From IMG/VR virus record IMGVR_UViG_3300025789_000028, positions 1 through 64,000 of that record: a stretch of 64,000 nucleotides of DNA; one strand, written 5' to 3'. Origin of the DNA: a virus. Made by a program: the position numbers and the translations under genes. How positions within the stretch are numbered: position 1 is the stretch's first letter; every line of letters starts with the position of its first letter. A model generated the notes under the pieces. The model saw only the letters and a list, made by a program, of their open reading frames with translations. It ran no database searches and was not told where the DNA came from. Shown here in pieces: positions 14,243-59,014 of this stretch.

Positions 14243-14508
14243 CAGATGATGAAGAAATGAACTTACTGATCCAGCGTGACAAAGAATATGTTGCTGGTGA
14301 AAGTGCAAAGTATTTAGGTAAAAAATACACGTTTCCTGATGGGAACTATATTGAAGTAATTCAAATCAAAAGTCGTGGCCCTGGACAAAACTATATCACG
14401 TACCACATCAAGCAAGGCCCTGGCATTGATAGAAAATTGATTATACCTTTATCAGAGTTTGGTGGAACGTATGGACATTTGTTTCAGGGAAACGCGGAGA
14501 AAAAGTAA
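14239..14508 (+). CDS. Unknown 89-residue protein
   Basis: Starts at the ATGA overlap. Composition suggests a small beta barrel (KKYTFPDGNYIEVIQIKSRG). No motif recognised. It ends just before the membrane-protein gene. Confidence 0.65.
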   Translation: MTDDEEMNLLIQRDKEYVAGESAKYLGKKYTFPDGNYIEVIQIKSRGPGQNYITYHIKQGPGIDRKLIIPLSEFGGTYGHLFQGNAEKK

Positions 14509-14514
14509 TAAATA
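14508..14514 (+). promoter_or_regulatory. Late-type ATAAATA motif
   Basis: ATAAATA begins at the stop codon of the preceding gene and ends 4 bases before ATG 14519. No Shine-Dalgarno is present. Confidence 0.45.
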
Positions 14515-14518
14515 TAAC

Positions 14519-16165
14519 ATGTCCACTCTAAAAAAGATATTCAGTTTATCAACACTTACACTAGCAGTAGCACTTACATTAAGTGTTATTGCCGCCTGGT
14601 ATAGTATCCAAGGCTTGGTAGCAATTTTCGCCGCGGCGGTTGTTCCCATTATGATCATGGGAGGCTCATTGGAGTTTGCCAAAGTTGTGACTACATTGTG
14701 GCTGCATACCTATTGGAATCGTGCATCAATATTACTACGATTATATCTAGTGCCTGCGGTCGTGTTTTTAGCACTACTAACAAGCATGGGTATCTTTGGA
14801 TTTTTAAGTAAAGCACATAGTGATCAAAGTTTAGTTAGTGGTGATGTCGCTGCCAAACTTGCAATCTACGATGAAAAGATTAAAACTGAAAAAGATAATA
14901 TTGAAACTGCACGTAAAGCCTTGCAACAAATGGATGCACAGGTTGATGCTAGATTAAGTCGTAGTGACGATGATAAGGGCGCCGAACGTGCGGTTGCCAT
15001 TCGTAAGCAACAAGCAAAAGAACGTGCAGACTTACAGAAAACTATCAGCGATTCACAAAATAAGATTTCACAAATAAATGAAGAACGTGCTCCGGTTGCG
15101 GCTGAAAATCGTAAGGTCGAGGCTGAAGTAGGTCCTATCAAATACATTGCCGCATTAATCTATGGTGATAATCCAGACAGTAGTTTACTTGAACGTGCTG
15201 TGCGTTGGGTTATTATATTGATTGTGTTTGTATTTGACCCACTAGCACTTACCCTTGTGTTGGCAAGTACATCAAGTTATGAATGGATGAATGAAGAAGA
15301 AACAAAGGTTGAAGAACCTAAAGTTGAAACTGACCCAGAACTTGAAGAGTTTGAAAAAGCATTTGATGAGGGTTTTGAGGATGAACCCACAGTAGAAGAA
15401 ATAGTGGAAGAAGTAGAAGACGAACCTATTCTTTGCTATAAGTGTAATACACCATTACTTAACGCTCCGGGTATAGGACCATTCTGTCCTAACAAGTCAT
15501 GTGACGTTATCGATGGTCCTTTTATGGAGGAAGAAAATGTTACAGATGTACAAACAACTATTGTTGAACCAAATGGAGTGGTGGGAGAAGAATTACCAGA
15601 ACAAGATACTACCCATGCAGACGAACCTAATGTGGACGATGTTCACAGAGTGGAGCCAATTGAAAACGAAATTACAGAAGTAATTACTACTGATGCAGAA
15701 ATTACAATTGATCAAGTTGAGCCAATTAAAGAATTGCCCCCACAGCCTGAAATTAGAACTGAAGGTGTTACACTAGAAGAAGTACACGAAGGTTATGTGC
15801 AGTTTGAAGGTAAGTCAATTACCAAACATGCATTACAAGAAATGCGTCCTGATTTATTCAGATTGTCATTGACTGATGGACATCCTGTAAGCACAAACTT
15901 TGGAACACAATTCCCTAAGTTTGCTGAAAAAGGAAGTATCTTTGTACGTGTAGATGTTTTACCTAATCGTGTTTACAAGTTTGATGGTAGTAGATGGATA
16001 GAGACAAATAAAGATCAAAGTGATTCATACCTATATGATGAACACTACATACAACATTTAATTCATAAAATTGACACTGGTGAATACGATATTGAATTGC
16101 TTTCTGAAAAAGAAAAAGCACAAATCGAATCATATTTGAGCGAACAAAATTCGCAAGATAAGTAA
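14519..16165 (+). CDS. Multi-pass membrane protein with coiled coil and acidic cytoplasmic tail
   Basis: 548 residues from ATG 14519; an upstream in-frame start would bury the gene in its neighbour. Three membrane segments lie in the first 105 residues (LAVALTLSVIAAWYSIQG, LVAIFAAAVVPIMIMGG, LYLVPAVVFLALLTSMGIFG). A coiled coil of about 110 residues follows, then a fourth segment (WVIILIVFVFDPLALTLVLA). The rest is acidic, contains a CYKC..CPNKSC four-Cys cluster and ends with a globular part. The topology resembles a family I recall from T4-like phages; its role is unknown. It directly precedes ClpX. Confidence 0.7.
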   Translation: MSTLKKIFSLSTLTLAVALTLSVIAAWYSIQGLVAIFAAAVVPIMIMGGSLEFAKVVTTLWLHTYWNRASILLRLYLVPAVVFLALLTSMGIFGFLSKAHSDQSLVSGDVAAKLAIYDEKIKTEKDNIETARKALQQMDAQVDARLSRSDDDKGAERAVAIRKQQAKERADLQKTISDSQNKISQINEERAPVAAENRKVEAEVGPIKYIAALIYGDNPDSSLLERAVRWVIILIVFVFDPLALTLVLASTSSYEWMNEEETKVEEPKVETDPELEEFEKAFDEGFEDEPTVEEIVEEVEDEPILCYKCNTPLLNAPGIGPFCPNKSCDVIDGPFMEEENVTDVQTTIVEPNGVVGEELPEQDTTHADEPNVDDVHRVEPIENEITEVITTDAEITIDQVEPIKELPPQPEIRTEGVTLEEVHEGYVQFEGKSITKHALQEMRPDLFRLSLTDGHPVSTNFGTQFPKFAEKGSIFVRVDVLPNRVYKFDGSRWIETNKDQSDSYLYDEHYIQHLIHKIDTGEYDIELLSEKEKAQIESYLSEQNSQDK

Positions 16166-16169
16166 TAGT

Positions 16170-17369
16170 ATGGCAGAAAAGAAATTAACTCATTGCTCTT
16201 TTTGTGGCAATCATAAAGACCAGGTTTCAAAATTAATTGTCGGAGATGATGTTGCTATTTGTAGCGCATGTATCGACTTGTGCAACAATCTTATTGTTGA
16301 CGAGAAAACCGCAGATGAACCTAAAAAGATTGAATCAAATGATTTTGACGCATACACTATTAAAGATCATTTAGATAGTCTTGTTATTGGACAAGACAAT
16401 GCTAAAATGGTATTAAGCGTTGCTATTGCTAATCACTATAAGCGTATCAATTATCCTCCCAAAGATTTAGAAATTCAAAAAGGTAATGTGTTACTGGTTG
16501 GTCCTACTGGTAGTGGTAAAACATTACTTGCACGTAGCGTTGCCAAATATCTTAACGTTCCTTTTGTAGTTGCTGATGCAACCAGCTTAACAGAAGCAGG
16601 TTATGTTGGTGAAGACGTTGAAAGTATGATTAGCATGTTGCTTGCTATGGCTGACGGTGATGTTAAACTAGCAGAACGTGGCATTATCTTTATTGACGAA
16701 GTTGACAAGATCAGCCGTAAAAGCGAAAGCGCAAGTATCACACGTGACGTAAGCGGCGAAGGTGTTCAACAAGCATTGCTTAAACTAGTAGAAGGTACAA
16801 AGTGTCGTGTAACTGCTAATGGCAAACGCAAGAATCCACAAGGTGATATGATTGAAGTTGATACTAAAAACATACTATTCATTGCCGGTGGCGCATTTGT
16901 TGGATTAAATGAAATCATTAAAAATAGAGTACAAGGTAGTGGCATGGGTTTTGGTGCAACTATCAAACCTAAAGATCAAGCAGTAGATTTATCAAAATCT
17001 ACTCCTGATGACTTGGTTAAATTTGGTATGATTCCTGAATTCATTGGTCGCTTTACTACTACCATTGCACTAGAAGAATTGTCATTAGAACAATTAGTAT
17101 CTGTATTAACCAATGTTAAAAACAGTTTCATTGACCAATACAAATACTTGTTTAGTATTGATAACATTGAATTGTCATTTACTGATGATGCCATCAAACA
17201 ACTTGCTCAAAATTGTATTGATTTAAAGACAGGTGCACGTGGTCTACAAACAGAATTAGAAAAAGTATTGATGCCGCATATGTTCCATATTCACAAATAC
17301 AAGAAAAATAATATCACCGAGATAAATATTACTACAAATTTGGTAAAGGAACCCAAGGCAGGTATATGA
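16170..17369 (+). CDS. clpX: ClpX, AAA+ unfoldase of the Clp protease
   Basis: Unfolds tagged proteins and feeds them to ClpP. 399 residues, near the usual length. The N-terminal zinc domain has C9, C12, C31, C34. Walker A is GPTGSGKT (111-118), Walker B IIFIDE (172-177), and the pore loop GYVG (144-147). Two functional loops differ from E. coli: the ClpP-docking IGF tripeptide is MGF (259-261), and the RKH substrate loop is RKN (220-222). The final ATGA overlaps the bS21 gene. A phage ClpP lies at 22733, so a dedicated phage pair is likely. The RKN change may alter recognition of ssrA-type tags (inference). Confidence 0.95.
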   Translation: MAEKKLTHCSFCGNHKDQVSKLIVGDDVAICSACIDLCNNLIVDEKTADEPKKIESNDFDAYTIKDHLDSLVIGQDNAKMVLSVAIANHYKRINYPPKDLEIQKGNVLLVGPTGSGKTLLARSVAKYLNVPFVVADATSLTEAGYVGEDVESMISMLLAMADGDVKLAERGIIFIDEVDKISRKSESASITRDVSGEGVQQALLKLVEGTKCRVTANGKRKNPQGDMIEVDTKNILFIAGGAFVGLNEIIKNRVQGSGMGFGATIKPKDQAVDLSKSTPDDLVKFGMIPEFIGRFTTTIALEELSLEQLVSVLTNVKNSFIDQYKYLFSIDNIELSFTDDAIKQLAQNCIDLKTGARGLQTELEKVLMPHMFHIHKYKKNNITEINITTNLVKEPKAGI

Positions 17370-17587
17370 AATCATTCGGTAGAAAAGTATTAGTACAAGA
17401 CGGTAATTTTGAAAAAGCACTACGCAAACTAAAGAAAAAAGTTACAGAGTCTAATTTGCTTCAAGAAGTGCGTGACCGTGAAGCATACGTTAAACCAACC
17501 ACAAAAAGAAAAATCGCAAAGAGCCAAGCCAAGAGCCGTTGGCGCAAACATATTCGTTCACAAGAACTTCCACCCAAACTATTTTGA
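17366..17587 (+). CDS. rpsU: Ribosomal protein bS21
   Basis: bS21 sits on the small subunit near the anti-Shine-Dalgarno end of 16S rRNA and takes part in initiation. 73 residues, matching the family: FEKALRKLKKKVTESNLLQE, then VRDREAYVKPTTKRKIAKSQ, and a basic C-terminal tail ending PKLF. The hallmark RDREAYVKPTTKRK is equivalent to the bacterial RRREFYEKPT block. It is translationally coupled to ClpX by ATGA. bS21 genes are known in some large aquatic phages, where they may replace the host copy on ribosomes. Confidence 0.92.
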   Translation: MKSFGRKVLVQDGNFEKALRKLKKKVTESNLLQEVRDREAYVKPTTKRKIAKSQAKSRWRKHIRSQELPPKLF

Positions 17588-17632: not shown

Positions 17633-17660
17633 TTGTAGATGCCGATAGTCGGGTCTACAA
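17633..17660 (+). promoter_or_regulatory. Stem-loop at the 5' end of the hsp20 leader
   Basis: TTGTAGA (17633-17639) pairs with TCTACAA (17654-17660), and the stem continues with CCGA/TCGG around a TAG loop with one bulged G. It would start within 1-3 bases of the predicted transcription start. The Shine-Dalgarno (AGGAG near 17680) lies outside it. Confidence 0.55.
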
Positions 17661-17689
17661 TAGTCATATTTGCTTATAGGAGAAATAAA

Positions 17690-18145
17690 ATGACAAACAC
17701 ACTAACCCTTCGCTCCCTTGACATTCCGTCAATTCACAAATTTGCAGTTGGTTTCGACAACATGTTTGACGAAATAATGCGAACATCTCAAGCTAACACA
17801 AATTATCCCCCATACAATATCGTTAAACACGATGAAGACAACTTCAGCATTGAACTTGCTGTGGCTGGCTTTGATGAGGGTGAAATTGACGTTCAATTGA
17901 ATAACAATCAATTGGTAATTAATGGTCAAAAGGCTGTGGAATTAACAGAAGACGGTGACGTTAAATCTGTTGAATATCTACACCGCGGGATTAGTTCACG
18001 TGATTTCTCTCGCACGTTCACACTTGCGGATCATGTAGAAGTAGTAACTGCAACGGTTGCTAATGGTATCTTACGTATTGACCTTGAACGCAAAATTCCT
18101 GAGGAAAAGAAACCCAAGAAGATTGCAATCAATTACAATAAATAA
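17690..18145 (+). CDS. Small heat-shock protein, IbpA-like Hsp20
   Basis: Holds unfolded proteins in a refoldable state. 151 residues from the ATG after AGGAGAAATAAA. The N-terminus (FAVGFDNMFDEIM) and YPPYNIV match IbpA/IbpB. The alpha-crystallin domain spans about 40-130 (FSIELAVAGFDEGEIDVQLN and NGILRIDLERKIPEEKKPKK). The GILRIDLER block includes the usual conserved strand. Hsp20 genes are known in T4-like phages. Its place beside ClpX, bS21 and ClpS suggests a shared proteostasis programme. Confidence 0.92.
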   Translation: MTNTLTLRSLDIPSIHKFAVGFDNMFDEIMRTSQANTNYPPYNIVKHDEDNFSIELAVAGFDEGEIDVQLNNNQLVINGQKAVELTEDGDVKSVEYLHRGISSRDFSRTFTLADHVEVVTATVANGILRIDLERKIPEEKKPKKIAINYNK

Positions 18146-18207: not shown

Positions 18208-18522
18208 ATGGCAAACGCAAGCCCAGAAGTTCGTAATCTTATTAAACCTAACTTGGCTCTAAAAGAACCTCCATTGTTTAGAATCATCTACCTTAATGAT
18301 GAACATACAAGCATGGAATTTGTAATTCATACACTAGTTGAATATTTTAATTACAATTCTGATACAGCAAGTCAAATTACTGTTGATATCCATGAAAAGG
18401 GTAGTGCTATTGTTGCTGTTTTGCCCTTTGAAATTGCAGAACAAAAAGGCATCGAAGTTACATTAGATGCTAGGGCACAAGGTTATCCACTACAAGTTAA
18501 AGTGGAAGCAGAATCAAACTGA
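18208..18522 (+). CDS. clpS: ClpS-like N-degron adaptor
   Basis: ClpS delivers proteins with destabilising N-terminal residues to ClpA-ClpP. 104 residues. The core LFRIIYLNDEHTSMEFVIHT aligns with the bacterial NDDYTPMEFV region, with Asn-Asp kept and the second Asp replaced by Glu. The helix after it and VDIHEKGSAIVAVLPFEIAE keep the His and the VA(E) surface of the pocket. The N-terminal extension is short. ClpS normally works with ClpA, which is absent here, so host ClpA may be redirected (inference). Confidence 0.88.
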   Translation: MANASPEVRNLIKPNLALKEPPLFRIIYLNDEHTSMEFVIHTLVEYFNYNSDTASQITVDIHEKGSAIVAVLPFEIAEQKGIEVTLDARAQGYPLQVKVEAESN

Positions 18523-19209
18523 TATATTGATTCGTTTAGCCCAATAGGGGCTTTTATGTAGGTAGGGATTGTTTACATACCCTACATTATTTAAAGTAGT
18601 ATCAACTGATTTTTCATAACTACCAAATACCCAATACTTAATTTTCTTTTCAGTATCATGCTTTAAAGTTTTTTGTAAGGGTATTTGGTTTTTAGTTATT
18701 TCAGGCTTTTCCCCGAAGTATAATTTTTCATCAGGGACTGCGTTAGTGACAACTATAATTTGTTTTACATCTAAATGTCGTTGTAATTTTTCAACGGATT
18801 TATTTAGATAAGTCAAGTCATCAAATCGTGCCGCAGTATAAACCATATCTTGTAATGTATTGGTATCACTATTGTTCCAACCATTGGCTCCAACAATAGC
18901 AACACCATCTACGATTACCACACTATGATGCATCATGTGAACAGTAGGCAAGTGTTTGAGTAAACTCATCAAATGTTCTGTTCTTCCTGGTAAGTCAACT
19001 GTATTAGAATATTCAGATGTTCCTGGCACATAAAAAACACCTTGATAGAATCTACCAAGGTGTGCTAATGTTTGTACTGTAGTGCGAATATCGCTACTAA
19101 CGTTACCTGCTACCAAACAGTATAAACTTGTGCTTTTGCCTTCCCAGTTAAAATTATCCTCAGGGGATAGATTTAAATCGCTGATAACATCAAAGCCAAT
19201 GTCTTGCAT
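18514..19209 (-). CDS. Degenerate calcineurin-like phosphoesterase fold (pseudoenzyme)
   Basis: 231 residues follow the metallophosphoesterase plan, with metal-binding positions replaced. The expected SDLH is VISDLNLS, GD is VAGNVSSD, GNHE is VPGTSEYSN, the HHAP position is VVTNAVPDE, and GHTH is VFGSYEKSVD. Scaffold elements remain, including VVIVDGVAIVGANGW, which parallels DVTFIGATLW in the intact relative at 25855. It is probably non-catalytic. It overlaps the ClpS gene tail to tail by 9 bases and shares one base with the upstream membrane-protein gene. Confidence 0.65.
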   Translation of the reverse strand: MQDIGFDVISDLNLSPEDNFNWEGKSTSLYCLVAGNVSSDIRTTVQTLAHLGRFYQGVFYVPGTSEYSNTVDLPGRTEHLMSLLKHLPTVHMMHHSVVIVDGVAIVGANGWNNSDTNTLQDMVYTAARFDDLTYLNKSVEKLQRHLDVKQIIVVTNAVPDEKLYFGEKPEITKNQIPLQKTLKHDTEKKIKYWVFGSYEKSVDTTLNNVGYVNNPYLHKSPYWAKRINISV

Positions 19210-19583
19210 TATTTTGCAATAGTCATCTTTGGCTTGCGTGGTGCACGTGGTTTCTTTTCAGCAGGAGTGATTGCTGGAGTAGCTGCCTTTTTTGCTCTAG
19301 GAGCACGTGGCTTTTTCTCTTCAACTACCTCTGCTTTTGGTTTTCTTGGGGTGCGAACAGCCTTAGGTTTAATTGCAGGTGCAACTTCTGGTTCAGGTTC
19401 TGCTTGTTCCAATTTAACTAAGGGCAACTCAACTTCACTAGCGATAGGTGTTTCAACCTTATAAGGTGCTTGTGCATCTGATTCTGTTTCTGCCTTAGCC
19501 TTTTTAGCTTTGCTATCATTGTAAAAATATACACCGGCTGCAATAATAACTACGGTTACGGCAATAATTGTAAAAAACTCCAT
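19209..19583 (-). CDS. Membrane-anchored protein with Lys/Pro/Arg repeats
   Basis: 124 residues. One N-terminal membrane helix (FFTIIAVTVVIIAAGVYFY) is followed by a Lys/Ala/Pro/Glu-rich tail with PRKPK, KKPRAPRAKKA and KKPRAPRKPK repeats. These resemble histone H1-like or AT-hook-like DNA-binding tails, so membrane tethering of nucleic acid is possible (inference). AGGAG precedes the start and a TATAAATA motif lies upstream. Confidence 0.65.
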   Translation of the reverse strand: MEFFTIIAVTVVIIAAGVYFYNDSKAKKAKAETESDAQAPYKVETPIASEVELPLVKLEQAEPEPEVAPAIKPKAVRTPRKPKAEVVEEKKPRAPRAKKAATPAITPAEKKPRAPRKPKMTIAK

Positions 19584-19602
19584 TTTTTATCTCCTAAAAA
19601 TA

Positions 19603-19610
19603 TATTTATA
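19603..19610 (-). promoter_or_regulatory. Late-type TATAAATA promoter
   Basis: A perfect T4-type late motif on the minus strand, with a leader carrying AGGAG before ATG 19583. Confidence 0.6.
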
Positions 19611-22732: not shown

Positions 22733-23329
22733 ATGAGCCTAGTTCCAATGGTACTTGAACAAACTTCCCGCGGTGAGCGTAGTTATGATATCTATAGCCG
22801 ATTATTGCGTGACCGTGTTATTTTGCTTGAAGGTGAAGTACATGACCAAATGGCAAACTTGATTGCCGCACAATTATTGTATCTTGAATCAGAAGATCCA
22901 GAAAAGGACATCAGTCTTTACATTAACAGTCCCGGCGGTAGTGTAACTGCTGGTATGGCTATCTATGATACCATGCAATTTATTCGCCCCGATGTTCAAA
23001 CAATCGTTATGGGTCAAGCATGTAGTATGGGTAGTTTACTTGCTCAAGCAGGTGCAAAGGGTAAGCGTATGATTCTTCCCAATGCACGACACATGATTCA
23101 TCAACCTTCAGGTGGTGCACGTGGTCAGGCAACTGATATGTTGATTCAAGTCAACGAAATCATTGAAATGAAAAAAAACCTCACACAAATTTATGTTAAA
23201 CATAATAGTGCAGGCAAGACTTTTGAACAGTTGGCCGCAGATATGGAACGTGACTTTTTCATGAGTGCAGAGGATGCAGTAATGTATGGGTTGGCAGACA
23301 AAGTGTTAGACAAGCGTCCTACTACTTGA
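22733..23329 (+). CDS. clpP: ClpP, serine protease subunit of the Clp complex
   Basis: Forms the tetradecameric proteolytic barrel that degrades proteins unfolded by ClpX or ClpA. 198 residues. Catalytic Ser98 lies in [10 protein letters not shown], His123 in MIHQPSGG and Asp near 170 in [15 protein letters not shown] replaces the usual AASMG. There is little or no propeptide: the protein begins at [20 protein letters not shown], close to the mature bacterial start. It is separated from clpX by 5.4 kb and has its own promoter, so the ClpX:ClpP ratio may be set separately. Confidence 0.95.
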
Positions 23330-25854: not shown

Positions 25855-26697
25855 ATGAAGGTAGCATTAGCAAGTGACTTACACTTAGAGTTTGAGGATA
25901 TTAATTTAAAGAACACAGAAAATGCTGAGGTTCTATTGTTGTCCGGCGACATTTTAGTTGCTCAGGATCTACATGATCATCCTGAACTGAATCCTATGGA
26001 TCCAGTTAATATTATTAACTTGGGTCGTAGGCAGGCTACTGCCCTTCGTTTCCGTGACTTTCTCAAGCGTTGCAGTTTTCAATTTCCTCATGTTATCTAC
26101 ATTGCAGGCAATCATGAGTTTTATCATGGCAAGTGGAAAGCATCATTGCAATACTTACGTGACGAATGTGCTAAATTCAATAATGTTTACTTCCTTGAAA
26201 AAGATGTAAAAGTAATTGATGATGTTACCTTTATCGGTGCAACATTGTGGACTGATTGCAACAAAGGTGATCCATTGACACTTCATGCACTAGCCGATAT
26301 GATGAATGATTACAAAATCATTCGTAATGACGAGCATGGATATACTAAGTTGCGTCCTGCGCACACAATGTATCGTCATCAACAAACACTTAGTTATCTT
26401 AAAGCGTTAATGCCTGATATGAAGGATAAAAAGGTTGTGTTTGTAGGGCACCATGCACCAACAAAACAAAGCACACATCCTAAATACGTAAATGATTATT
26501 TGATGAACGGTGGTTATAGTAGTGATTTAAGTGAATTCATACTAGATAATCCACAAATCAGATTATGGACTCATGGTCATACCCATGATCCTTTTGATTA
26601 CATGGTTGGTGAAACCCGTGTGGTATGTAATCCTCGTGGTTATGCTGGTTGGGATGAACACGCTGATGTGTTTGAATTAAAGTTTTTGGACATCTAA
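25855..26697 (+). CDS. Metallophosphoesterase, intact active site
   Basis: 280 residues. All calcineurin-like motifs are present: ALASDLHL, LLSGDIL, IAGNHEFYHG, VGHHAPT and WTHGHTHDP. They bind two metal ions and cleave phosphoester bonds; the substrate is not evident. It is the intact relative of the degenerate proteins at 18514 and 56344. Gene spacing suggests the same transcript as the 131-residue protein. Confidence 0.85.
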   Translation: MKVALASDLHLEFEDINLKNTENAEVLLLSGDILVAQDLHDHPELNPMDPVNIINLGRRQATALRFRDFLKRCSFQFPHVIYIAGNHEFYHGKWKASLQYLRDECAKFNNVYFLEKDVKVIDDVTFIGATLWTDCNKGDPLTLHALADMMNDYKIIRNDEHGYTKLRPAHTMYRHQQTLSYLKALMPDMKDKKVVFVGHHAPTKQSTHPKYVNDYLMNGGYSSDLSEFILDNPQIRLWTHGHTHDPFDYMVGETRVVCNPRGYAGWDEHADVFELKFLDI

Positions 26698-28865: not shown

Positions 28866-29138
28866 ATGTTTAATACCATTGCTAAACAATTAGAATTACA
28901 GTCATTGGGTAAACATACTATTGATCAATCTGTTTCTACAGAAGAGTACGACCAATTTTGCAAAGAATACATCTTTGATATGCTTAAAGACAACGAAGAA
29001 ACGTTTGGTGAAGCGTTTTGTAAAAGATTTAATATACATAATTATGTACTAAGTACATTGCAAAGCAGAGAATCCGCAGATAAACACATAAAGAAATTTT
29101 ATATAAATGACACACGTAGTAACAGAAAATTGCATTAA
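28866..29138 (+). CDS. Unknown 90-residue helical protein
   Basis: Start chosen at ATG 28866, one base after the previous stop; an earlier in-frame ATG would overlap that gene by 101 bases. The protein [20 protein letters not shown] onward is acidic-helical with a basic end ([10 protein letters not shown]). Its last 32 bases overlap the ferredoxin gene. Confidence 0.6.
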
Positions 29139-29433
29139 ATGTAAGCACACTGATTGTGTTAAGGTTTGCCCTGTAGATTGTTTCTACGAGGGCCCCAACT
29201 TTTTAGCAATCAATCCAGACGAATGTATTGACTGTGGGGTGTGTATTCCCGAATGCCCCATTGATGCTATTGTAGTAGATAATGACAAGACTGTACCTAA
29301 TCTACAGTTTTGGATTGACTTGAATGGTGAATTAGCAAGTAAGTGGCCCAATATCACTAAGCAAAAGCCTCCATTGCCCGATGCGGCTGAGTGGAAAAAC
29401 AAGCCAAACAAAATTGATTTGCTAGAACGATGA
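29107..29433 (+). CDS. 7Fe ferredoxin, FdxA type
   Basis: Low-potential electron carrier with [3Fe-4S] and [4Fe-4S] clusters. 108 residues. Cys 9, 12, 17, 21, 25 and 40, 43, 46, 50 follow the spacing of Azotobacter ferredoxin I, shifted by one. The C-terminal region ([20 protein letters not shown]) is also characteristic of this type. Phage ferredoxins known to me are mostly plant-type 2Fe-2S, so this class is unusual. It lies between a small unknown gene and dCMP deaminase, coupled by overlaps. The redox partner is unknown. Confidence 0.9.
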
Positions 29434-36408: not shown

Positions 36409-37515
36409 ATGAGCATACCAAATCAACAGAACATTAATATTGGGCTTCCAAACGAATCTATCGGAAGCGATTCATTATTCACGGCATTTACAAAAACACA
36501 AGACAACTTCAGTCAGTTATTTTCTTGTGCTAGTCCATACGTATCATTCATAGGTAACACCGGCATCAATACCAGTGCTAATGTTAGCAACGGATCAATT
36601 ACTATTACTAACACCGGTGTCACAGAATTAGTTGCTGGTACAGGGGTTACATTGTCAGGAAACACCGGGGTCGTTACTATTTCTAGTAGCGGTGGTGGTA
36701 ATGGCGGCGGCGGAACCGTAACAAGCATAGCTGTAATTCCAGTGTCAAACACACGACTAACTGTGTCAGGAAGTCCTATCGTATCAGAAGGCAATATATA
36801 TGTAGATTTAGCGACAAGCAATGTTAGTGCTGGTACATATACAAATCCAACAGTTACAGTAGATGCATATGGAAGAATCACTAGTGCTTCAAACAACACA
36901 GTATCAGGTACTGTTACGAGCATTGGATTGACTCCTGGACCGGGCATACAAATCAACGGTGGACCAATCACAAGCAATGGTAACATTACTGTTACTAACA
37001 CAGGTGTTACAAGATTAAATCAAGGTCCTGGTATTGCATTGTCAGGTGGCAACGGTAACGTTACTATTAGTGCAACTACATTAGGTGGAACAGTAACAGG
37101 TGTAAGCGTAGCAAGTAACGCATTAGTGGTTACAGGAAGTCCAGTAACTACATCAGGTACTATCACAGTTGATTTGCCAGCAAATGTTCCTGTGACAGGA
37201 CAACTATTACTAAGTGGTAGTGATAATTTAGGTAACGGTGCTGCCGCAAACTTAAATGTAACAGCAAGTTATTTCTCAACATCAGGTGGTCCTTATACAG
37301 CAACATTAGCCGCAGGTACAACAGGACAAATCAAAACATTTATGTGTGCAAGTCATGCGTTGGGATATGACATGGTAATCACAGTTACTAACGCAGGATG
37401 GAAATCAAGCGGTACCGGAACAATCACATTTACTGCTACAGGACAAGGATGCACTCTTCAATATATTAATAGTAAGTGGTTCTGTATTGGCAACAACGGC
37501 ACAACATTCGCATAA
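36409..37515 (+). CDS. Fibre-like structural protein, 368 residues
   Basis: N-terminus INIGLPNESIGSDSLFTAFT then KTQDNFSQLF is a module I recall in T4-like phage structural proteins. The middle is repeats of about 50 residues with TGVTLSGNTGVVTISS and GTVTSIGLTPGPGIQINGGP, typical of trimeric beta fibres. The C-terminal 100 residues are a separate domain (FMCASHALGYDMVITVTNAG). It is the first gene of the fibre block. Confidence 0.75.
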   Translation: MSIPNQQNINIGLPNESIGSDSLFTAFTKTQDNFSQLFSCASPYVSFIGNTGINTSANVSNGSITITNTGVTELVAGTGVTLSGNTGVVTISSSGGGNGGGGTVTSIAVIPVSNTRLTVSGSPIVSEGNIYVDLATSNVSAGTYTNPTVTVDAYGRITSASNNTVSGTVTSIGLTPGPGIQINGGPITSNGNITVTNTGVTRLNQGPGIALSGGNGNVTISATTLGGTVTGVSVASNALVVTGSPVTTSGTITVDLPANVPVTGQLLLSGSDNLGNGAAANLNVTASYFSTSGGPYTATLAAGTTGQIKTFMCASHALGYDMVITVTNAGWKSSGTGTITFTATGQGCTLQYINSKWFCIGNNGTTFA

Positions 37516-45700: not shown

Positions 45701-45942
45701 TCTTTGAAGTAACATGGGGCGCAGGTAGTACTGTACCAAATGGCTTAGTAAGAATGGGTTATAACGGTACCACTGGTCAACTAAATATTACTACAGTAGA
45801 TCCAACTAATACAGCATACGAAACTGCAAATCCTGCTAATCAAGATCCAGGTGGCGCAACAATACCGGGAACATTCAATTTCTCTGCAACATTTACATTA
45901 CGCACTCCTGCAATTCAATCAGGTGGATTATACTGGTGCTAA
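42721..45942 (+). CDS. Large adhesin with LamG-like and glycine-rich domains
   Basis: 1073 residues. A LamG-like domain occupies about 20-290 (YLSFDGNAADQYVDSNYVNG, WYAVALTYDSVSQTMRLYVN). A glycine-rich part follows (SMVAVGAGGGGTYAG) and wraps a possible SPRY-like insert (ITFGQKVMFSLTVDTSASSG). A second Gly-rich stretch lies near 740-900 (GGSGGGGGGLYSDIGSGGGG), as in gp38-type distal adhesins. The last 130 residues form a beta domain ending in YWC, shared with the proteins at 46852 and 47497. Likely receptor binding. Confidence 0.75.
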   Translation: MIIGPGVVIGSGATMGAGNAGPTGNIIFEYAMGNSASYNGQGLDLSRNGFLGPVGSTVGTNFMFDISADYANGAVGNIGQYFNGYGGNSGSGNAFITHGPMSYLSFDGNAADQYVDSNYVNGYNIPSGSSYSIFAVVRLKGFTGSGGTFNGGGIVGGDNMYFQFVPPGLLGNPYPVLCANNTNTYPAVADFDTQYQLNTWYAVALTYDSVSQTMRLYVNGQAIGGSGVSTSVMPISGNEPLYWGTLEGQNYLNGDLGVMTAWNYALSPSEIASYTTDYGYQYGIQIAKQDNDMPAQSYSQLFSVPGQYTFQVPQGVSNVSMVAVGAGGGGTYAGYSPPGGDSYVYSQWSHFNVNMNTNAGYSGAPFITFDCTTGNNNALLGNVAPGWLFTSIDLNNYYPNRALIEGNVYGIVLAVDSTDTANVVLTISPSVDSVSGNVYNFLGQTIVGAQGALEINNSQYYTNNNGTPGPRAKPLWGDSGGKGGVVDSLGSWPIGGAGAGGYGTNDAVVAFDPTQTYVYDGGGNYGTGEPNIILGLSNYNLSVEATANNSSYPGIATGTYDITFGQKVMFSLTVDTSASSGSQCIGFGGSGAELQSYVGGTTDSGGFYNDGGFYSNGAPAYSGYPTFTTGDVVDIAIDNSNALGQLTWVRVNGGDWMGDPVANPATGTNGITISVNTEDGSIYLMTTQGDAGDIGKWSINTSNTYSTPSGYTFVAGLANAGSNGGGGSNQELPTYTDGQGTGSIGGSGGGGGGLYSDIGSGGGGVGVYGVGNPGTHGGWVDSDTYGGNNPYSEWQAQAVGGRGGSRIGSSGTQGGMASAWAGGAGGWPGGGGGSAPSLWDGGNGGALAYKNNVTTDPGTPGNAGTVLQVIVGQGGWGGGFTGENYYGGGKGGDGAVRIVWPGDTRQFPDTSVGIDALVTSLTINPGDFVFGGGSPANSITVGSGSIGNNYVTIYSANDVVAQNIFAFFRSVGVYTQNSLNSNNSYDPNNFNAYIFEVTWGAGSTVPNGLVRMGYNGTTGQLNITTVDPTNTAYETANPANQDPGGATIPGTFNFSATFTLRTPAIQSGGLYWC

Positions 45943-45965
45943 AAATTAATTATAAGGAACATACT

Positions 45966-46832
45966 ATGGCAAAGCAACCTAGCATTAACGAAACAAACGA
46001 TCCAGGAGTATCACGTATTCCTGTACAACAAAAAATTGTTAAGTCTGTTAGTAACTCATTACCTAAATATCATTGGGTAAGAGACCCTTCATATGCTCTT
46101 GCTGAACAATTTGTTCCACAATTGTCAGAAAGCAGTATTGCCGCAACTGTTGATTTACGTCAATATTGCAGTCCAATCGATGATCAAGGAAACTTAGGTA
46201 GTTGTACTGGTAATGCTATTGCAGGTGCAATTGATTTGTTAGATAGAAAAACACATAACTTGCAAACACGTGTTAGCAGATTATTCATTTACTACTATGA
46301 ACGTGTTCTTGAGAATGATGTAAATTATGATAACGGTGCATATATTAGTGACGGTATCAGAGCAACATCTACATACGGTGCACCGCAAGAAACATTATGG
46401 CCATACAACATTAATATGTTTAGAACCAGACCTAGTTCTGCCGCAATCGCTGATGCAGTAAAACGCAAAGTTACATCAAGCCAAGCGGCAGCAAATTTCA
46501 CAGCAGTACAAAGTGCATTAGCAAGTGGTTATCCTGTTATTGTAGGCTTTGATGTATATTCAAGTTTCGAAGGTGCATGGGGTAATATACCTCATGGTCA
46601 AACAGGATCAGGTATGATGCCTTATCCTAACACAAGAACAGAATCATTGTTGGGCGGACATGCTGTTTGTCTAGTGGGATATAACAACAATACAAATCGT
46701 TTTATTGCAAGAAATAGTTGGGGGACAAGTTGGGGTGACAATGGTTACTTCTATATGCCATATCAAGTGATTCAGAATTCTAGCATGAGCAGTGACTTTT
46801 GGGTTATTAAAACAGTAAATGACCCCGCATAA
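45966..46832 (+). CDS. Papain-like (C1) cysteine protease
   Basis: 288 residues from ATG 45966, which has an AAGGA Shine-Dalgarno; an in-frame ATG at 45936 overlaps the previous gene. Gln74 and Cys80 lie in IDDQGNLGSCTGNAIAGAID, His232 in LLGGHAVCLVGYN and Asn250 in RNSWGTSWGDNGYFY, so the catalytic set is complete. There is no long propeptide and no signal peptide. Its place among fibre genes suggests a virion-borne or maturation protease. Confidence 0.88.
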   Translation: MAKQPSINETNDPGVSRIPVQQKIVKSVSNSLPKYHWVRDPSYALAEQFVPQLSESSIAATVDLRQYCSPIDDQGNLGSCTGNAIAGAIDLLDRKTHNLQTRVSRLFIYYYERVLENDVNYDNGAYISDGIRATSTYGAPQETLWPYNINMFRTRPSSAAIADAVKRKVTSSQAAANFTAVQSALASGYPVIVGFDVYSSFEGAWGNIPHGQTGSGMMPYPNTRTESLLGGHAVCLVGYNNNTNRFIARNSWGTSWGDNGYFYMPYQVIQNSSMSSDFWVIKTVNDPA

Positions 46833-57250: not shown

Positions 57251-59014
57251 ATGGATATTAGAGTTAAATTTAACACACTTGACAGTCAGGCAGCATTTGC
57301 AAAAAAATGGGCGGTAGACGTTACACCGGATATGGTCGATCATTTGGACATTTCTTGGCACCTATTGCAACATGCACTTAGTGCTGAAAGTAATGTTACA
57401 GATTTTGTCCAATTAGACACTACCACCGAGCATGAATTTTTAGTATCTAGTGCTGATGGAAACTTTGGTGATTTAGCAATAAGTTCTACACCGATGAAAA
57501 ATATGGCTGGATGGTATCATGTTGTTAGTACCCAAGGTCTTGCATTAGGTAAAATTGTAAAGTCAATTGACATTACTAGTATCCCAATGACATTCTTAGA
57601 TAATGTCAGTACTATTAATAGTATTAATGTAACACCTGCTACTGTTGATCCTACTAGCAGTGCTGGTCAGTGGGCAAGAATTCGTGTTGCTAGTCAATAT
57701 CGTCCATTGCTAACTTCGTTTGCTACACATGACGTTAATTACTTGAGCAAGCCTGAACTATACATTTTAGACTCTGGTATTAATTTTGAGCACCAAGAAC
57801 TTAATTATGACGGCCTTGACAAAGTAAATTTCTACACATTACCCCAATTCAGTGGTAATTTTGCCGACGACATTGGTCACGGCACTGGTGTTGCAAGTAT
57901 GGCGGTAGGTAAGAATTTAGGTATATGTTCTTATGTTAAGTTAATGAATGTTAAAATTGGTGGCATGGTTAACGGAGAACAATATAATGCAAACTTGTTA
58001 GATGTTGGTCAAGCAATCGATGCTATCATGAATGCCATTGTAGCAGATCCTACAGTTACTAGAGTTATTAACATGTCTTGGGGTATTCCTCGTAGTGCAT
58101 GGCTAGATGCTAAAGTGCAATCATTAATAGATGCCGGTGCATTTGTTGTATGTGCGGCTGGTAACGGACATATTGACGTTGATCAAATTTCACCTGCCGG
58201 AATGAACACAGTAATGACAGTTGGTGCAATCGATCAATACGACATTCCAGCCGGTTTCAATAATATTGCACCAAGTGATTCAGGTTTAACAACCAGTATT
58301 GGTTTGGGATTAGATATTTTTGCTCCTGGTGATAACGTAATGGTTGCAGACGGCATTTCAGGTACTACAAGTTATCATGTAACATCTGGTACATCTTTCT
58401 CAGCTCCTTTAGTGTCAGGTGTTGCGTGTGTAATTGCATCAATGAATTCAAATCCATTGTTTTATTCTGACTTAGTTAAATTAATTGTTAACACTGCCAC
58501 TGAACATGCATTACTATTTGAAGATTCATCGTTCTCAGAAAATCAAAATAGACTAGTTTATTTGGCTACCGCAGATATGGCAGCATCATACAAAGAAACT
58601 AATGCTGTTAGTTATTTGGGTGTCCACGATAAAGAAGATGTTATTGTTGCTGACATTAACTCAAACTTAGACACATCACAAATTGAAAAATTAGCTCCTA
58701 CTGATCCTGTAGTTTTTTCTGTAGAAATGGCTGATGATTCTAAAGACTATGCACAATTTTTAGTTTGCGATCCTGTTACAGGTGTTATTACTATTACAAA
58801 ACCTAATCTTCAATTGCCAGAAGAAACCCGTTTAAAAATGGTAAACTTTATCGGAGTTGCAAAGAATTCATCTATTACTATGAAAACAAATATCTTGTTC
58901 TTCTTTGTTAATAATCCATTATACAAAGACACATTAGAATCTGATATTACATTGGCACTTACTGACGTTAACAGTATCAGTTTCTTCGCTACTTGGAAAC
59001 AAAGTATCAAGTAA
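57251..59014 (+). CDS. Subtilisin-like (S8) serine protease
   Basis: 587 residues. Catalytic Asp174 (YILDSGINFEHQEL), His210 (DIGHGTGVASMAVG) and Ser382 (SGTSFSAPLVSGVA) are all present, with the oxyanion Asn305 (CAAGNGHID). The first 160 residues are a non-catalytic domain (VKFNTLDSQAAFAKKWAVDV) without a signal peptide, probably a virion-anchoring part. A C-terminal region of about 150 residues is beta-rich. Late promoter and context point to a structural or maturation protease, or a virion-borne degrader of surface proteins. Confidence 0.88.
   Translation: MDIRVKFNTLDSQAAFAKKWAVDVTPDMVDHLDISWHLLQHALSAESNVTDFVQLDTTTEHEFLVSSADGNFGDLAISSTPMKNMAGWYHVVSTQGLALGKIVKSIDITSIPMTFLDNVSTINSINVTPATVDPTSSAGQWARIRVASQYRPLLTSFATHDVNYLSKPELYILDSGINFEHQELNYDGLDKVNFYTLPQFSGNFADDIGHGTGVASMAVGKNLGICSYVKLMNVKIGGMVNGEQYNANLLDVGQAIDAIMNAIVADPTVTRVINMSWGIPRSAWLDAKVQSLIDAGAFVVCAAGNGHIDVDQISPAGMNTVMTVGAIDQYDIPAGFNNIAPSDSGLTTSIGLGLDIFAPGDNVMVADGISGTTSYHVTSGTSFSAPLVSGVACVIASMNSNPLFYSDLVKLIVNTATEHALLFEDSSFSENQNRLVYLATADMAASYKETNAVSYLGVHDKEDVIVADINSNLDTSQIEKLAPTDPVVFSVEMADDSKDYAQFLVCDPVTGVITITKPNLQLPEETRLKMVNFIGVAKNSSITMKTNILFFFVNNPLYKDTLESDITLALTDVNSISFFATWKQSIK

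Follow-up and report, generated by a model that had tools for sequence, protein, structure and literature searches.

What would a phage do with a phosphoesterase that has lost its metal site, and why would it keep one beside its Clp genes? The question is posed by a gene on the minus strand (18514..19209) of a 64,000-nt stretch of DNA, hereafter the window, taken from a 92,059-base virus record of a large uncultured phage. Its reading frame, complete from the ATG start and free of internal stops and frameshifts, encodes 231 aa and converges with that of ClpS, the two sharing the last 9 nt of ClpS; the ORF list and this overlap agree with the coordinates and the antisense placement originally assigned to the gene. 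The original prediction saw in it a metallophosphoesterase (MPE) fold with its metal ligands lost at every site, under selection for a non-catalytic role such as sensing or decoy binding. We followed this up by computation, and refer to the protein, a calcineurin-like fold without a di-metal site, as pseudo-metallophosphoesterase (pMPE).

A metallophosphoesterase fold without its metal site

The pMPE is a divergent relative of the intact phage MPE encoded further along the window (25855..26697, plus strand; PF00149, phrog_1649), which serves here as the comparison enzyme. Two-sequence BLASTP between them is weak (E 0.003, 21% over 100 aa), yet the similarity is not due to chance. An HMM of the pMPE family, run against the translated frames of the window, picks out the 25855 protein (E 4.9e-8) and nothing else, and profile-profile comparison with the 25855 family by HHalign gives E 3.4e-8 over essentially the full length, or 6.6e-9 over 216 columns when a larger pMPE family is set against the MPE family. 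A PHROG search likewise matches the pMPE to phrog_1649 ('metallo-phosphoesterase') at 2.2e-7, and this is the best family match for 14 of the 15 aligned family members. Neither Pfam nor NCBIfam identifies the pMPE of the window as an MPE: it has no Pfam match at E <= 10, and PF00149 is matched by none of the 15 aligned members.

The modelled structure tells the same story as the profiles. An AF2 model built on the alignment of 15 family members (pLDDT 84.8, pTM 0.86) has as its top Foldseek match in the PDB the phosphopantetheinyl hydrolase PptH (E 9.4e-8), followed by Dbr1, MPPED2, Mre11 and other MPEs; superposition on PptH 6unc_D (VIA) gives Z 21.2 and rmsd 3.0 with 216 aligned, with further MPEs at Z 15-17, and the closest viral structures are annotated metallophosphatases. 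The model of the intact 25855 enzyme (pLDDT 69.4) also has PptH as its best match (6unc_A, Z 18.3). Sequence searches of solved structures returned chance-level matches only for one query (A1) and none for another (A2). Fold and sequence homology, from model and profiles respectively, thus both place the pMPE in the calcineurin-like MPE superfamily, and the predicted fold is borne out; superposition could have revealed an unrelated structure and did not.

Set against the 25855 enzyme by HHalign, all five motifs of the pMPE are altered. DLH reads DLN in motif 1 (D8 kept as D11, H10 to N13) and GD reads GN in motif 2 (D32 to N36); GNHE reads GTSE in motif 3 (N86 to T64, H87 to S65, E88 kept as E66), GHHAP reads TNAVP in motif 4 (H199 to N156, H200 to A157, the proline kept) and GHTH reads GSYE in motif 5 (H242 to S197, H244 to E199, the glycine kept). 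The ligand pattern of active MPEs (D-x-H / GD / GNH / GH / GHxH, PF00149) is absent, and the first Asp, D11, is the sole canonical ligand left in the window's copy.

Relatives were gathered in four IMG/VR scans with pMPE or ClpS queries, three of which each contributed their best 80, out of 186, 211 and 228 confirmed stretches respectively, with distant members under-sampled; the family set holds 96 distinct full-length members among the matches listed, down to 45% identity. Among these listed matches the bridging Asp is Asn (N36) in 96/96, D11 and E66 are each kept in 95/96, and position 65, the histidine of GNH, is Leu in 87/96. Counted over eight ligand positions, one member carries no ligand-type residue, 71 carry one, 22 carry two and two carry three, compared with a reference family of 72 MPE sequences, of which 71 or all 72 carry any given one of these ligand residues. 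No intermediate with intact ligands occurs among the 96 listed, the fullest (L020 and L253) having three of the eight. As the loss is common to all sampled members, it predates the radiation of the sampled family. The claim that everything was altered therefore stands at the level of the motifs but not of the ligands, the first Asp being kept, and loss at every site was a slight overstatement: most ligands are gone, and D11 and E66 remain.

Upkeep and the placing of conservation

Is this, then, a gene on its way out? The reading frame is open in all 96 of the full-length members collected, and some 50 columns are invariant across 15 diverse members. Invariant residues use both synonymous codons (at N36, AAT in 58 and AAC in 38), so conservation acts at the protein level. 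Pairwise Nei-Gojobori dN/dS has a median of 0.23 and a maximum of 0.42 in the pMPE (174 pairs, dS 0.05-1.5) and a median of 0.12 and a maximum of 0.28 in the MPE family (299 pairs), figures to be taken as indications, since many pairs have a high dS and the pairs are not independent of one another. The proposed selection for a non-catalytic role gains from each of these: N36 is fixed family-wide, both synonymous codons are in use, and dN/dS across related phages is purifying throughout, with no frameshift of the kind that would mark a dead gene. Judged by its sequences, the pMPE is an old, maintained pseudoenzyme and not a dying gene.

What has been conserved has also moved. With loop faces assigned from strand topology without coordinates (hence not a surface map), and with percentile ranks averaged over loop groups, the loops after strands, on the former active-site side, have a mean rank of 0.65 in the pMPE vs 0.82 in the MPE, and the loops before strands plus the C-terminus, on the opposite side, 0.71 vs 0.48; one of the seven opposite-side groups, before strand 8, breaks the trend (0.59 vs 0.73). 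The pMPE family is uniform at seven positions of the old active site (D11, N36, G63, E66, P159, G196, N214), and ligand positions 13, 64, 156, 197 and 199 vary. Also invariant are D7, H145, D147, D185, K189 and R226; four of these (H145, D147, D185, K189) precede strands 7 and 8 and are, by topology, away from the phosphoesterase centre.

A possibly comparable arrangement is described, in excerpts of PMC3101248, for VPS29 of retromer, an inactive MPE fold with a conserved partner surface opposite the metal pocket. By analogy, the conservation shift of the pMPE may resemble this opposite-face surface. VPS29 is likewise a non-catalytic MPE fold and appears in the Foldseek list of the pMPE model (E 6e-3); it still binds metal in vitro, is eukaryotic and has no close sequence relation to the pMPE, and it has protein partners, whereas the partner of the pMPE would be read from a coupled gene. 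Eukaryotic DNA polymerase B subunits also keep an inactivated MPE domain as a scaffold, and differ from the pMPE in partners and domain make-up.

The coupled upstream gene and a proposed membrane-held scaffold

The gene in question lies immediately upstream (19209..19583, minus strand), its stop codon sharing 1 nt with the start codon of the pMPE (TAATG), and encodes a protein of 124 aa with a hydrophobic N-terminal segment, followed by a basic Lys/Pro/Ala-rich tail that ends ...RKPKMTIAK. We call this candidate membrane partner, whose copy in the window has no Pfam or PADLOC family match, the tether. Of 65 distinct loci among the matches listed, 64 have a same-strand ORF that ends near the start of the pMPE (the 65th has too little flank and no tether ORF); three of the 64 are cut or misread at contig edges, which leaves 61. 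The tether ends within 12 nt of the pMPE start in 60 of these and 38 nt from it in the other, and the proteins span 64-147 aa. A hydrophobic N-terminal segment is present in 45/61, the rest having mostly short basic-hydrophobic helices, of which the untruncated ones are marginally amphipathic per sequence (shuffle p 0.011-0.14). On the tree, the transmembrane and amphipathic types change nine times vs 16.4 when shuffled (three tips are edge-truncated), and the type is therefore partly inherited.

The opposite end of the tether is the conserved one. Its last three residues are [V/I/A][A/V]K in 48/61, written in 27 different nine-base spellings, the final residue is Lys in 55/61, and the C-terminal peptide is mostly [M/L/I]-x-[V/I]-[A/V]-K. 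When the 1770 ORFs of the loci were scanned for the C-terminal pattern, 31 of the 32 matches were the tether gene. Taken together, the conservation shift of the pMPE and its co-encoded, tether-like partner point to protein-protein scaffolding instead of sensing or decoy binding.

The two genes also appear to share a promoter. TATAAATA, which is the T4 late promoter consensus, occurs at 19603..19610 (minus strand), 27 nt ahead of the start codon (ATG) of the tether gene, with an AGGAGA ribosome site between them (19590-19595, minus strand). Of the 61 loci with a Shine-Dalgarno start and enough flank, 59 have TAAATA in the 55 nt ahead of the tether, usually between -24 and -40. The same holds for 210 of the 1095 other ORFs, and random 55-mers contain the motif in 2.7% of cases; the exact 8-mer is present in only 3 of 64 tether upstream regions. 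TAAATA in this position fits a putative T4 late promoter, and a scan for sigma-70-type promoters found no excess over shuffles (10 vs 10.5). Elsewhere in the window, [C/G/T]ATAAATA stands 22-31 nt upstream of the ORFs starting at 36409, 42721, 46852 and 57251 (plus strand) and 60711 (minus strand), which suggests that T4-type late promoters may be in use in this phage lineage. Neither T4 Gp23 (PF07068) nor Terminase_6N (PF03237) had a match in the virus's own record, but the Gp23 control was equally silent, which makes this negative uninformative.

We propose, giving it an even chance, that the pMPE acts late in infection as a non-catalytic scaffold, which its co-encoded tether holds at the membrane. 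The protein would derive from the phage MPE (phrog_1649) family, would have lost its di-metal catalytic centre before the present pMPE family radiated, and would since have been retained as a rigid scaffold for protein binding. Its gene, second in the operon that it forms with the coupled tether gene, would be expressed late, from a T4-type promoter of the operon's own. By prediction, the N-terminus of the tether either inserts into the membrane or rests on its surface, and would attach the protein there; most plausibly, its conserved tail end would dock on the pMPE and hold it there, and the membrane-held pMPE could then gather further phage or host proteins. Such a scaffold, working with its tether, would explain the loss of the metal site, the upkeep, the conservation shift, the conserved end of the partner and the promoter. 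Median net charges would suit the docking, at -7 for the pMPE and +11 for the last 40 aa of the tether, but the comparison MPE is itself acidic (median -10), so the complementarity counts for little. Other points tell against the proposal: the opposite-face trend has its one exception, the C-terminal triplet is absent from 13/61 tethers, membrane association of the non-transmembrane tethers would depend on marginal amphipathicity, and a new active or ligand site could be built from the invariant D7, H145, D147, D185, K189 and R226.

The Clp genes, other readings and the wider record

Could the proteins gathered be those encoded next door? Ahead of ClpS (18208..18522; PF02617, E 7e-24) the plus strand of the window carries, in order, ClpX (16170..17369; zinc finger PF06689 and AAA domain), ribosomal protein bS21 (17366..17587; PF01165) and the small heat-shock protein Hsp20 (17639..18145; PF00011); ClpP follows at 22733..23329 (plus strand; PF00574), and a DUF4407-like protein, weakly matched (E 6e-4), lies near ClpX at 14459-16165 (plus strand). 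In all 80 loci in which ClpS was found, among the matches listed, the pMPE lies directly downstream of it on the opposite strand, 75 of the pairs overlapping or abutting and five having gaps of 73 to 681 nt. Neighbour counts, drawn from a mixed set of 95 distinct pMPE cores, some of them found via ClpS queries, and restricted to loci with enough flank, are ClpS 94/94, Hsp20 92/92, ClpP 61/61, ClpX 81/87, SprT-like 57/84 and bS21 49/91 among the matches listed. The DUF4407-like neighbour is linked as tightly as ClpS (52/52 loci, among the matches listed). Gene order is largely conserved among these phage relatives, and the linkage may be core synteny. The 80 kept ClpX matches (at 48-53%) are spread over many phyla and gave no host call.

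The main rival to the scaffold reading is that the pMPE regulates or adapts the phage's own Clp system, binding ClpS, ClpX or ClpP late in infection, perhaps recruiting them to the membrane through the tether, so that substrates are selected or spared. We regard this as rather unlikely, in spite of the constant place behind ClpS, the near-constant company of ClpS, Hsp20, ClpX and ClpP and a phage ClpS that aligns over its whole fold with solved ClpS adaptors. A role of this kind has a phage precedent in SPO1 Gp53, an adaptor-like protein that redirects host ClpC according to excerpts of PMC6873191. However, such a role would be read from gene position alone, linkage is no proof of interaction, the pMPE is read from the opposite strand, under a putative promoter of its own, and DUF4407 and Hsp20 are linked equally tightly. 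Moreover, Pseudomonas phage PA5oct (MK797984) carries its ClpX-bS21-Hsp20-ClpS genes in this order too, two extra small genes lying between bS21 and Hsp20, and has neither a pMPE nor any convergent gene after ClpS; the Clp cassette thus manages without it. A search of viral contigs for PA5oct-like ClpS gave one match only.

A bolder combination, which we consider unlikely, would make the tether-anchored pMPE a membrane proteolysis hub that recruits phage ClpS, Hsp20 and ClpXP to the inner membrane late in infection. If it were true, chosen membrane-proximal host proteins could be degraded there, or phage assembly intermediates processed. To our knowledge there is no earlier case of a dead phosphoesterase turned protease adaptor, and we know of no MPE fold in SPO1 Gp53.

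The sensing or decoy binding originally suggested fares less well than the selection invoked for it. The metal-free old pocket could hold a nucleotide or other phosphorylated ligand uncleaved, for instance a defence signal; the seven uniform active-site positions allow that a pocket persists, and a jumbo-phage survey, in the excerpts at hand, puts phage calcineurin-like phosphodiesterases in counter-nucleotide defence (PMC7824862). Yet most of the retained residues are of structural kinds (Gly, Pro, Asn), the five variable positions are ligand positions, conservation has moved off the former active-site loops relative to the enzyme, and PADLOC gives the pMPE no defence-system family match; we judge such a role quite improbable. 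Residual or new catalysis is unlikely too. An enzyme with a changed mono-metal or metal-free mechanism might draw on D11 and E66, kept in nearly every member, and on the invariant D7, H145, D147, K189 and R226, but Asn has replaced the bridging Asp throughout the family, neither Gx-His motif is left, and H145, D147, D185 and K189 sit topologically away from the phosphoesterase centre, which leaves this mechanism very doubtful. Least probable by far, and excluded in practice, is a dead gene or a decaying duplicate of the MPE heading for loss: dN/dS runs at roughly double the value for the intact family (0.23 vs 0.12), but it is purifying and never above 0.42, no frame among the 96 has a stop or frameshift, about 50 columns are invariant in 15 members, and the coupled partner gene has a conserved end of its own.

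How far does the pMPE reach beyond this phage? The phrog_1649 MPE (25855-26697 in the window; e.g. Synechococcus phage B23 gp92) has the fold and the best structure, PptH 6unc, in common with it; the MPE has its di-metal site, whereas that of the pMPE is destroyed, and the pMPE is ~50 aa shorter and stands in another gene context. None of 50,697 phage records matched the pMPE at E <= 1, which leaves it with no cultured-phage homologue there, while the MPE is matched in 155 records; the pMPE family is common among metagenome phages, and tblastn of the scanned genome contigs gave no bacterial or prophage homologue. A paper on bS21-encoding phages (PMC9723584) places Hsp20 and Clp proteases in the vicinity of bS21, and PMC7824862 reports ClpS, ClpX, ClpP and SprT-like proteins in jumbo phages; a phosphoesterase is not mentioned in PMC9723584 or PMC12619734, nor Clp or Hsp20 in PMC7029224, and PMC7162821 had no match to the terms sought. 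Our searches of PubMed Central (open licences) found no published dead-MPE scaffold in phages and no such gene combination. The pMPE is another pseudoenzyme on the MPE fold, and the tether gene is newly described here. Dead-MPE scaffolds are known in eukaryotes (VPS29), and the pMPE offers a concrete, testable phage candidate for the change from enzyme to scaffold; fixed beside a phage Clp system and a candidate tether, it is also an entry point to the roles of phage ClpX, ClpP and ClpS.

Co-occurrence with MPEs was dropped as a line of support, PF00149 being found in 15 of 19 long records and thus too general. The intact MPE of the window matches the PADLOC candidate defence family PDC-S10 (E 9e-9). 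A third MPE, over the PF00149 cut-off, lies near 73.5-76 kb of the virus's own record (L001 489-2837), adjoining a RimK-type ATP-grasp ligase and a NifU N-terminal-domain protein, an unusual cargo for a phage. The window further encodes a papain-family cysteine protease (45936-46832, plus strand), a subtilisin-family protease (57251-59014, plus strand) with a TAAATA late-type motif upstream, and, beside a dCMP-deaminase-like gene, a phage ferredoxin (Fer4 and DUF3470; 29107-29433, plus strand).
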